Of a stretch of DNA of 12,162 nucleotides, positions 1 to 811 are shown one piece after another (position 1 is the stretch's first letter; each line of letters opens with the position of its first letter). Below the pieces are notes generated by a model. That model ran no database searches. It had not been told where the DNA came from and saw only the letters and a list, made by a program, of their open reading frames with translations. Both the position numbers and the translations under genes were made by a program. Source of the stretch: Bartonella birtlesii IBS 325 (lineage in GTDB: Bacteria > Pseudomonadota > Alphaproteobacteria > Rhizobiales > Rhizobiaceae); NCBI RefSeq assembly GCF_000273375.1, contig NZ_CM001557.1, positions 148,813-160,974 on the forward strand, read 5' to 3'.

Positions 1-30
1 CATTATGGAGAGATCTACACTTTCTGTTCA
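1..30. repeat. 30-bp direct repeat, copy 1
   Basis: The first 30 bases (beginning CATTATGGAG, ending TTTCTGTTCA) recur without mismatch at 670-699. In copy 2 the repeat starts directly after the stop codon of the small HTH gene. By analogy copy 1 should sit directly behind the stop of another HTH gene just left of the window. The sequences after the two copies differ, so the homology ends at the repeat. Confidence 0.9.
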
Positions 31-55
31 TTAAAAAACGCTGTTTTCATTTTTA

Positions 56-84
56 TTGTAAATCCCCTGAAATTCCTTTATAGT
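56..84 (+). promoter_or_regulatory. Predicted sigma70 promoter of the Brt-like RNA
   Basis: TTGTAA at 56-61 and TATAGT at 79-84 are separated by 17 bases, the optimal spacing. Transcription would start near 91. From there an RNA of about 200 nt would end near 284-295, just past a GC-rich hairpin and just before the HTH gene. The start site is inferred from spacing only. Confidence 0.55.
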
Positions 85-90
85 TTAAAA

Positions 91-290
91 GATGATTTTG
101 GTCGCATACGCAACGACCAATAGGGCTCTAAAACCCGAAACCTAAACATGAATTTACCCCGCTTTGCGGGTATCCCGGGATTCCGGGAGATTTTGCTATG
201 TCCAAGTGCTCTCAGCACTAAAAGCAAAATGCTGATTTAGGTTCAGTTTTAGACTCCCGGAATACTCATGCGAGGGCGCTCGCACTCGGC
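91..290 (+). ncRNA. Brt-like structured RNA upstream of an XRE regulator
   Basis: This stretch is GC-richer than its surroundings and packed with perfect inverted repeats. Seen directly: a hairpin at 98-104/114-120; CCCGC-TTT-GCGGG at 158-170; a 10-bp closing helix 180-189/254-263 (ATTCCGGGAG with CTCCCGGAAT). Inside that helix are an 8-bp helix 190-197/223-230 capped by 205-210/214-219 (AGTGCT-CTC-AGCACT) and a short 232-235/243-246 hairpin, together a three-way junction. A 6-bp hairpin at 269-274/279-284 follows. Known: B. henselae makes nine abundant RNAs of about 194-203 nt (Brt1-9), each directly upstream of a poorly transcribed HTH gene (Trp1-9), and Brt1/Trp1 affect badA. Position, size from the predicted start site and neighbour all fit. 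The exact ends are inferred; there is no U-tract after the last hairpin, so how the RNA ends is unclear. Confidence 0.7.
123..132 (+). repeat. 10-bp direct repeat GGGCTCTAAA, copy 1
   Basis: GGGCTCTAAA at 123-132 recurs exactly at 294-303, where it forms the spacer between the G-rich ribosome binding site and the GTG start of the HTH gene. The two copies bracket most of the Brt-like RNA. Chance is possible for 10 bp, but the location in the initiation region makes it worth recording. Confidence 0.5.
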
Positions 291-296
291 GGGGGG
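288..296 (+). promoter_or_regulatory. G-rich ribosome binding site of the HTH gene, possibly masked
   Basis: GGCGGGGGG lies 7 bases before GTG 304 and is the only Shine-Dalgarno-like sequence near either possible start. GCGGGG at 289-294 is exactly complementary to CCCCGC at 157-162 in the Brt-like RNA. The same CCCCGC also contributes CCCGC to a local hairpin (158-162/166-170). The two pairings exclude one another, so the site could be hidden or exposed by the RNA's fold. Confidence 0.5.
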
Positions 297-303
297 CTCT
301 AAA
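294..303 (+). repeat. 10-bp direct repeat GGGCTCTAAA, copy 2
   Basis: This is the second copy of GGGCTCTAAA (first at 123-132). Its GGG is the end of the six-G run that probably serves as Shine-Dalgarno for the HTH gene, and its AAA directly precedes the GTG start codon at 304. Confidence 0.5.
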
Positions 304-669
304 GTGCAAACCAAAACTCTCAACGACATTTTTGTAGGCAAGAGAATTCGTTTGAGGCGAAAAATGTTGAAAATGTCTCAAAAAGAATTAGCGCATGCTT
401 TAAATGTAAGCTACCAACAAGTTCAAAAATATGAAACAGGCTTAAATCGTGTTGCTGCGGGACACCTGAAAGATATTGCCGATATCCTGAGCGTTCCACT
501 TACCTTTTTTTACACTGATGTCTTAACAAAACAAGAAATCCCATACCATCATGATGCGCTCATATCGAGCAGAGAGGAATATTTGCTTTTAAAAAGATTT
601 AGAGTTTTAACCTCTGTAAAACAAAGAGCAATTTTACAACTCATCGCTGATCAGAATGAAAGTTTTTAA
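304..669 (+). CDS. Small XRE-family DNA-binding regulator (Trp-like)
   Basis: This encodes a 121-aa cytoplasmic protein with one helix-turn-helix domain, probably a transcription regulator. Residues about 13-66 form a Cro/C1-type domain; helices 2-3 run from SQKELAHALNV to SYQQVQKYE, followed by the family's G-x-N-R-V turn and a conserved VPLTFFY end. The 50-residue tail has no recognisable domain. I choose GTG 304 because it has a G-rich ribosome binding site. The in-frame ATG at 268 has none, lies in a hairpin (269-284) and would add 12 residues encoded by structured RNA. Known: Bartonella Trp proteins follow Brt RNAs, and Trp1 has been implicated in control of the adhesin gene badA; alphaproteobacterial relatives include PraR-like regulators. 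Inferred: expression depends on readthrough or refolding of the upstream RNA. The target genes of this copy cannot be told from sequence. Confidence 0.85.
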   Translation: MQTKTLNDIFVGKRIRLRRKMLKMSQKELAHALNVSYQQVQKYETGLNRVAAGHLKDIADILSVPLTFFYTDVLTKQEIPYHHDALISSREEYLLLKRFRVLTSVKQRAILQLIADQNESF

Positions 670-699
670 CATTATGGAGAGATCTACACTTTCTGTTCA
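670..699. repeat. 30-bp direct repeat, copy 2
   Basis: This is an exact copy of bases 1-30, starting at the first base after the HTH stop codon (667-669). CTGTTCA at its end (693-699) has an inverted match TGAACAG at 746-752 followed by TTTTTATTTT. That could act as a poor long-loop terminator, but the 46-base loop makes it doubtful. The repeat most likely marks the shared 3' flank of tandem Brt/trp units. Confidence 0.9.
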
Positions 700-811
700 G
701 TAGCATTCGTGGATATTTTTTTAAAGCCCAGCCTTTTACGCATAGTGAACAGTTTTTATTTTCAACCATGTGCACTTAAATACGCCTGTTATAAATACTT
801 GGGTATCTGTT
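700..811. other. Non-coding gap after the HTH gene
   Basis: I see no gene here. It contains AT-rich runs and the TGAACAG-T-run noted with the 30-bp repeat. On the minus strand, the bases just beyond 812 occupy the place where an IS605-type RNA would carry its guide, but with the element decayed this is probably only flanking DNA. Confidence 0.4.

Follow-up and report, generated by a model that had tools for sequence, protein, structure and literature searches.

Sequence comparison places a Brt RNA of Bartonella birtlesii in a wide family of structured leader RNAs with matched variable arms

The stretch of DNA analysed here (the window, 12,162 nucleotides, positions 148,813-160,974 of the 1.83-Mb one-contig genome of Bartonella birtlesii IBS 325) begins with an RNA that, judging by sequence, is a Brt RNA. 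On comparison, Brt RNAs are seen to form one branch, that of Bartonella, in a wide family of structured leader RNAs, of which many lie on mobile elements. Comparison of copies also shows that a loop (L3) and a strand (Ja) of the RNA core are matched to pair with two upstream arms (Lb and La respectively), the four segments changing fast and together while the core hardly changes. An RNA thought peculiar to one genus is in this way placed as a branch of a family found before TraM, the quorum-sensing antiactivator of conjugative plasmids, and before other regulators. The comparison provides a precise and testable structure for Brt, in which two coded pairings cross a helix with an alternative partner, and the arm code would account for the marked divergence of Brt copies in two short segments.

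The first 700 bases of the window hold promoter-like boxes, a stably folded RNA region and a GTG-started XRE gene, with a 30-bp direct repeat on both sides. The boxes (TTGTAA-17 nt-TATAGT, 56-84, forward strand) agree with the consensus in 9 of 12 letters, a match that is weak when taken alone, four such sites being present on both strands of 1-760 against 1.5 (sd 1.2) expected in shuffles. Homologous copies supply 170 distinct upstream stretches, in which the block upstream of the RNA is conserved (TTTT from -47, AA from -27 and TT from -20 relative to the first hairpin), and the promoter-like boxes of the preliminary description are present. The RNA extends over about 91-290, its ends being adopted from published sizes, and is directly followed on the same strand by a G-rich Shine-Dalgarno-like stretch (291-296) and by the trp gene (304-669), which encodes a 121-aa HTH protein of XRE type (match to Pfam HTH_3 at E 1.2e-12) and confirms the HTH gene described earlier; GTG304 stands in a column occupied by ATG in most of the alignment rows shown.

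The direct repeat, which the preliminary description did not contain, marks the unit boundary on the left (1-30, forward strand) and is found again in an identical copy on the right (670-699, forward strand), and a third copy with one mismatch lies 1.4 kb upstream in an array of units (L088 7402-7431). Its presence on both sides of the unit and again in the array would fit a multiplication of units by recombination at this repeat. The unit of the window is the end of this run, where five RNA cores inside 2.5 kb (L088 6542-9012) are found against three trp-like frames; RNAs without a full trp may act alone. On the other side, a groEL-like frame recognised by eye (1300-2943) adjoins the unit, so that the earlier placement beside groEL holds as a matter of position, with no sign of any link between the two.

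Of the 71 genomes of the genus, 46 were matched in a blastn search with window positions 85-305 and 49 by R1, a covariance model made from Bartonella copies; the three further genomes, missed by blastn, have one divergent copy each, before an XRE-like frame. One genome (G022) shows nine blastn matches at a threshold of E<=0.01, all at E 6e-37 or better and spread between 1,439,053 and 1,716,028 (277 kb), with copies 4 and 9 in the order along the genome identical to each other and an HTH frame seen after eight of the nine. Copy number, span and identical pair fit B. henselae Houston-1, for which the available text of Tu et al. 2016 (PMC5387305) gives nine Brt RNAs of 194-203 nt with an XRE/HTH gene 10-18 nt downstream, and on this ground the window's RNA and gene are taken, from their sequence, as a Brt/Trp unit, in agreement with the family assignment made before. 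There are matches on five Bartonella plasmids as well, in every case over an HTH gene (two inspected); the Brt-HTH units on plasmids pTT0105 and pBGR3 (L352, L353) lie near a ParA gene. Among the B. henselae-like copies, the trp frames of 2, 3 and 5 (L136, L138, L137) change frame or diverge in the C-terminal half, and the trp of copy 8 is named as a pseudogene in the available text of PMC5387305. In the portions available of the published work (PMC5387305, PMC8070961), the effect on badA and biofilm is studied for Brt1/Trp1, copy 1.

The RNA folds with unusual stability, at -77.9 kcal/mol for 91-310 (z -3.8) and -67.6 kcal/mol for 91-290 (z -3.4), none of 200 shuffles being as stable in either case. 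The minimum-energy folds contain a 10-bp helix (P1, 180-189/254-263) and an 8-bp helix (P2, 190-197/223-230), which a third hairpin (231-235/243-247) completes to a three-way junction. Sequence and folds thereby bear out the earlier picture of an RNA of about 200 nt with a 10-bp closing helix, to which the long-range arm pairings and a competing hairpin at 173-188 have now to be added. The centroid structure of 91-290 shows the long-range arm pairing instead, and for the window RNA the P1 state (-77.9 kcal/mol) and the arm-paired state (-76.2 kcal/mol) are close in energy.

From its 5' end, the RNA (all elements on the forward strand) carries hairpin H1 (98-120, stem 98-104/114-120) with an ACGC-containing loop, with 99.2% of alignment cells paired and two pairs with two-sided changes (100% and four pairs in a rhizobial set described below), then a short hairpin PA (123-136, GGG 123-125/CCC 134-136; 95.8% paired and one such pair, against 100% and two pairs in the rhizobial set) which bears arm La (127-133) in its loop, then arm Lb (140-146) and hairpin Ph1 (158-170, stem 158-162/166-170), in which four of five pairs show two-sided changes and 95% of cells are paired. 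A hairpin P1alt follows (173-188, stem 173-178/183-188) that takes the 5' strand of P1 (180-189); P1 itself, closed by the 3' strand at 254-263, has 99.3% of cells paired, and in the rhizobial set 81.2%, with two-sided changes at two of ten pairs. P1alt is followed by GATTTTGCTA and scores terminator-like, and an early stop of transcription there is conceivable. P2 encloses an inner hairpin P2b (190-230 in all, P2b 205-210/214-219), with only 58.9% of P2b cells paired in the rhizobial alignment, and the internal loop of P2, TATGTCCA/TAAA, is near-invariant and nearly kept from Bartonella to rhizobia. Hairpin P3 (232-246, CTGA/TCAG; 97.3% paired and nearly invariant in Bartonella) surrounds L3 (236-242), strand Ja (247-253) spans the gap from P3 to P1, and a 3' hairpin without a U tract (269-284, TGCGAG-GGCG-CTCGCA) is paired in 94.3% of cells, its rhizobial counterpart GCGG-GGGCGCA-CCGC in 100%.

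Compensatory changes had been anticipated in both long helices of the junction. They are present in P2, where pair 190/230 changes on both sides in 27 of 56 sequences, and P1 is nearly invariant inside Bartonella, five of its ten pairs never varying and one showing a two-sided change, the helix being recoded in other genera. Sequestration of the ribosome site by 156-161 (CCCCGC/GCGGGG), a pairing contained in the minimum-energy fold of 91-310, was set aside by eye on the alignment because Ph1 covaries by itself and its G/A position does not track the ribosome site.

Two segments of the RNA, about 122-147 and 236-253, are hypervariable relative to the rest, La varying with Ja and Lb with L3. 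In the window the pieces tile, with Ja as the whole gap between P3 and P1, L3 as the loop of P3 and La inside the loop of PA. The arms were scored in distinct full-length copies other than the window's own, independently of the alignment inside the arms and after two copies without a recognisable P3 were dropped (181 of 183 copies). The 5' region of each copy fitted its own L3 and Ja with scores of 6.75 and 7.06, compared with 4.92 (sd 0.09) and 5.63 (sd 0.07) when permuted and with 5.16 and 5.88 as the highest of 300 permutations. At fixed thresholds (5.5 for a Bartonella arm helix), 162 distinct arm combinations include 123 with the loop pairing (Lb:L3) and 129 with the strand pairing (La:Ja), while random combinations of arms pair in 28% (L3), 42% (Ja) and, for both, 12%. 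Two-sided changes occur at 21 pairs of the whole structure in alignment A1, compared with 13.8 in shuffles, of which none of 500 reached this number; as A1 is drawn from copies with paired arms (56 of 57 chosen, L031 being dropped for an insertion), its counts for the arms are biased upward, and the unbiased comparisons are those with permuted or random arms, here and in the rhizobial and class sets below.

The state of the downstream gene is tied to the arms. When 188 distinct full-length copies were sorted by their trp (intact meaning at least 100 aa; 186 copies used, two without P3 being dropped), both arms were paired in 104 of 122 copies with an intact trp, 23 of 53 with a shortened one, five of nine without trp and one of two undecided. 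The difference between intact and shortened trp gives a Fisher value of 6e-8, and of 3e-8 when distinct combinations are counted (87 of 105 against 17 of 47), values that are not exact probabilities since Brt copies are related, and recombination could break arms and genes together. The tie is not complete: 18 of the 122 intact-trp copies are without one or both pairings, B. henselae-like copies 2, 5 and 7 included. By eye, copies 1, 3, 4, 6 and 9 of that genome are paired, copy 5 is half paired and copies 2, 7 and 8 are unpaired; copy 3 has its arms paired, yet its trp frame is cut short.

The preliminary description, following the literature, called these RNAs Bartonella-specific, and this part of it does not stand, as homologues were found on plasmids and in genomes outside the genus. 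They correct the range of the Brt family and leave the membership of the window unaffected. Among 297 genomes of the bacterial family searched, R1 gave weak matches in six outside the genus (best 1.9e-6), five of which have the same structural plan by eye; the sixth (L202) sits in an apparent coding gene and was taken as chance. A blastn search with one rhizobial copy matched 360 plasmid records, 267 of them typed as conjugative. In 18 chosen plasmid stretches from outside Bartonella, the next gene is traM in nine, an HTH regulator in two, a gene with a sub-cut-off Pfam TraM match in one and a small protein without Pfam match in four, the last two stretches having no close gene and no annotation respectively. 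One leader copy (L350 1761-2057; a similar frame is present in L203) precedes the gene of a protein of some 98 aa which is of neither the TraM nor the HTH kind and has no Pfam match.

In the rhizobial set (alignment A2), each arm has a 6-8-nt helix in all 25 copies, and the arms score 6.39 (L3) and 6.21 (Ja) with their own partners, as compared with 4.17 (sd 0.19) and 5.16 (sd 0.13) when permuted, in the 25 copies left after three of 28 loci (L199, L213, L343) were lost by the search pattern; three rhizobial L3 helices, at 5.3, are just below the Bartonella threshold. P1 is recoded in these sequences, and P1alt, which shares a strand with it, also has two-sided changes: A2 with P1 contains 17 such pairs against 10.6 in shuffles, and with P1alt 16 against 10.0, none of 500 shuffles being as high in either case, and three of the six P1alt pairs change on both sides. 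The cells paired amount to 81% for P1, 80% for P1alt, 64% for P3 and 59% for P2b, the figure for P3 coming from an alignment that misplaces P3 in part; by eye, the rhizobial P3 reads CCGT/ACGG or CTGT/ACAG. Comparison within this set shows P1 and its competitor P1alt, which uses the same 5' strand, both with two-sided changes.

A covariance model of the rhizobial RNAs (R2) gives E 2e-9 for the window and E 1e-4 or better for each of the nine B. henselae-like copies, four of which it matches by the core alone. In the other direction, R1 recovers 20 of 24 rhizobial loci, L202 among them, with E-values of 5e-4 or better. All of these model E-values are rough. In a sample of 289 genomes of the class, R2 matched 36 at E 1e-3, the window's own included, with at least seven copies in the richest, copy numbers in the R1 and R2 searches being lower bounds from at most eight candidates scored per genome. 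In the 23 of 29 loci outside Bartonella with the exact core word (six left out), own arms score 14.4 against 11.7 (sd 0.28) for permuted ones, with 12.6 as the highest permutation, and R2 contains no arm pairs. The next genes of this class set are mixed according to the frames read, with an XRE protein, nuclease-like, pilin-like and other products; the leader copies L360, L372 and L380, from different families of the class, stand by eye before pilin-like or prepilin-like frames. Six of the 23 copies have a hairpin with a T tail that shares 3-5 nt with the 3' strand of P1, the layout of a plain attenuator, and terminator-like hairpins after P1 are mildly enriched (10 of 23 against 113 of 488 in controls). 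With phages, blastn of one traM leader gave no match among 50,697 records, and none of the viral loci matching the core pattern (80 listed of 109) was matched by R2, so that the pattern matches were taken as chance.

Taken together, the retention of both P1 and P1alt on one shared strand is the main ground on which we propose a switch, and we consider it somewhat more probable than its alternatives, with modest confidence, that the Brt RNA is a cis-acting attenuator of trp in which the arms and the choice between P1 and P1alt decide the outcome. Pairing or non-pairing of the arms, together with P1 or P1alt, would decide the passage of transcription or translation into trp, and a private arm code would prevent the switch of each copy from pairing with sister RNAs in the same cell, while RNAs of the same code may act on each other. 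This proposal is supported by published observations on B. henselae, namely that Brt is abundant and trp scarce (available text of PMC5387305) and that trp1 rises when the 3' end of Brt1 is removed (available text of PMC8070961). Against it are the intact-trp copies without one or both pairings, the 3' hairpin without a U tract, the pairing of P1 in 81% of rhizobial cells, the search for arm copies at the trp ribosome site and in the 520 nt downstream, which found none (see below), and the mild degree to which terminators are enriched. The switching step is what we infer from the comparison, and the arms may also be paired at the same time as P1, in a pseudoknot, which leaves the switch unproven.

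A C4-like antisense RNA acting in trans, in which the core with Ja and L3 would be the antisense part (a', b') and the 5' arms (a1, b1) its self-binding site, is possible and in our view rather doubtful; its true targets would then lie in other mRNAs or in those sister Brt-trp leaders that share its code. Such a role would suit the high abundance of Brt, the binding of Brt1 RNA to other mRNAs that is quoted as unpublished data in the part available of PMC8070961, and a plan identical to that of the C4 RNA of phages P1 and P7 (available text of PMC5320573; row 'c4-a1b1' in that of PMC2864571). It also has a parallel within the window's own genome, where RNAs of the sRNA-Xcc1 type (RF02221) are present in at least 15 copies elsewhere (14 candidates scored and one more), among them L416-L421 on contig C1 (817,065-863,068; 1,255,057-1,258,693; 1,549,148-1,585,887). 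At the ribosome site, both arms recur in a third copy in ten of the 14 scored, one arm does so in one and neither in three, the RNA often standing before a phage antirepressor: the genes that follow, from the frames read, are AntA-like in eight cases and solenoid-like in four, and the four proteins after RF02221 copies that were tested comprise two AntA antirepressors and two beta-solenoid proteins.

Near trp, no such third copy was found, which counts against the antisense role. At the trp ribosome site, no arm copy was detected in 118 intact copies (own 5.25, permuted 5.15, sd 0.06), nor was any found within 520 nt downstream for 61 distinct codes (own 12.08, four permutations 11.82-12.10). 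Pairing of Ja with the trp ribosome site reaches -14.9 kcal/mol in the window (La -12.6), yet it was rejected as it does not exceed permutation in the 118 copies, and only two of six copies with CTCTAAA at that site have the same La. The window does contain GGGCTCTAAA twice, at 123-132 and at 294-303, a recurrence that is no family trait among the 118 intact copies compared and is probably a coincidence or a trait of the lineage, because neither an arm copy at the ribosome site across the Brt set nor one within 520 nt downstream was found. Outside the RNA, the code of the window fits two places in its own genome (none for a control pattern), neither at a start codon and both judged to be chance, and in that genome and in the 520 nt downstream no downstream or trans target of the code was found. 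A code shared by B. henselae-like copies 1 and 7, as a ground for the quoted binding of Brt1 to Trp7, was also considered and showed no match by eye. Finally, the C4 model (RF01695) matched none of the loci scanned, whether of the window, rhizobial, class or RF02221 type.

A ligand-binding riboswitch, for which heme has been proposed, is unlikely in our judgement. Here the internal loop of P2 would bind the ligand and the arm pairings would be a fixed tertiary contact and no switch. The near conservation of TATGTCCA/TAAA from Bartonella to rhizobia accords with this, as does the report, in the part available of PMC8070961, that low heme raises a brt1-gfp reporter; on the other hand, the genes that follow are a mixture of regulators and unrelated genes (traM, XRE and, by eye, nuclease-like and pilin-like ones) with no common metabolite in sight, and a fixed contact leaves the high diversity of the arms unexplained. 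An origin of the arm matches in shared ancestry and in recombination among copies, without selection for pairing, is highly improbable, for although the copies are repeated and recombining and mismatched chimaeras exist, matching is seen in three separate sets with different arm sequences (Bartonella, rhizobial, class) and is kept less often where trp is shortened.

With regard to known systems, the unit of the window is a member of the Brt1-9/Trp1-9 group of B. henselae, with the same RNA sequence, size and place directly before an XRE gene, as given in the available text of PMC5387305, where the group is called genus-specific, which the present searches do not bear out; the words pseudoknot, covaria..., Xcc1, traM and Rfam are all absent from the main text of that paper. 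The traM leader of Hyphomicrobiales conjugative plasmids has the same H1, PA with La, Lb, P1alt/P1, P2 core (TATGTCCARG...CTAAAGG), P3 with L3, Ja and 3' hairpin, and differs in its recoded arms and P1 and in its next gene, which encodes the TraR antiactivator TraM and not an XRE protein. The fall of Agrobacterium TraM without Hfq (available text of PMC4201532) agrees with control of traM at the RNA level and is not proof of it, and the promoter and regulation of traM are treated in PMC6341043 and PMC3907764, the available portions of which name no leader RNA. In the mostly freely accessible literature covered, on Brt, traM leaders and small RNAs, alphaproteobacterial structured RNAs, sRNA-Xcc1 and C4, we came across no description of the arm pairing, no RNA placed before traM and no link from Brt to the sRNA-Xcc1 or C4 families.

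Scans with Rfam 15 gave no match for the window RNA or for the rhizobial RNA (RF02506 matches elsewhere in the rhizobial loci), and window 1-720 was without a match to the sRNA-Xcc1 model RF02221 at E<=5. Of five class loci tested, four (L360, L366, L369, L377) match RF02221 over the whole model, at the P1-P2-P3 core, below its cut-off (26.9-29.6 bits of 53), and R2 on 36 loci of the sRNA-Xcc1 type gave five matches at E<=1, the best at 2.7e-4. Across the phylum, 51 of the 299 genomes searched carry RF02221 (36 above cut-off), and none of 14 controls does. Its copies share the plan of PA, La, Lb, L3 and Ja, with own 5' arms scoring 16.2 against 12.2 (sd 0.25) when permuted. Taken as a set, they also carry the arms a third time, at the ribosome side of the gene that follows, where the scores are 13.8 against 11.2 (sd 0.22); both results are from 43 copies. 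Sequence support for a link between Brt and sRNA-Xcc1 is weak and the suggestion rests mainly on this common plan, by which sRNA-Xcc1 is the nearest named relative of the Brt RNA.

It is tempting, as a tentative view that we hold to be possible more than probable, to unite Brt RNAs, traM leaders, the class-wide leaders of Alphaproteobacteria, sRNA-Xcc1 and perhaps phage C4 in one superfamily of coded antisense switches, disseminated on mobile elements, in which the private two-word code of each element (La/Lb with Ja/L3) would set its own immunity or conjugation circuit apart from relatives in the cell, and of which Bartonella would have turned an expanded set into a host regulatory network. 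sRNA-Xcc1, which lies upstream of symE in Xanthomonas cassettes (available text of PMC12444791), has the same three-way junction P1-P2-P3, the upstream PA and arms pairing with L3 and Ja; it differs from Brt in its P2 loop and in the third arm at the ribosome site of many copies, and Rfam models only its 87-nt core. In the C4 antisense RNA of phages P1 and P7, a' and b' are complementary to the ribosome-site and upstream segments, and short variable stretches set specificity (PMC5320573, in the text available). Brt copies differ from C4 in being without the ribosome-site copy of the arms, and the arm layout of the RF02221 copies is that of the phage P1/P7 RNA.
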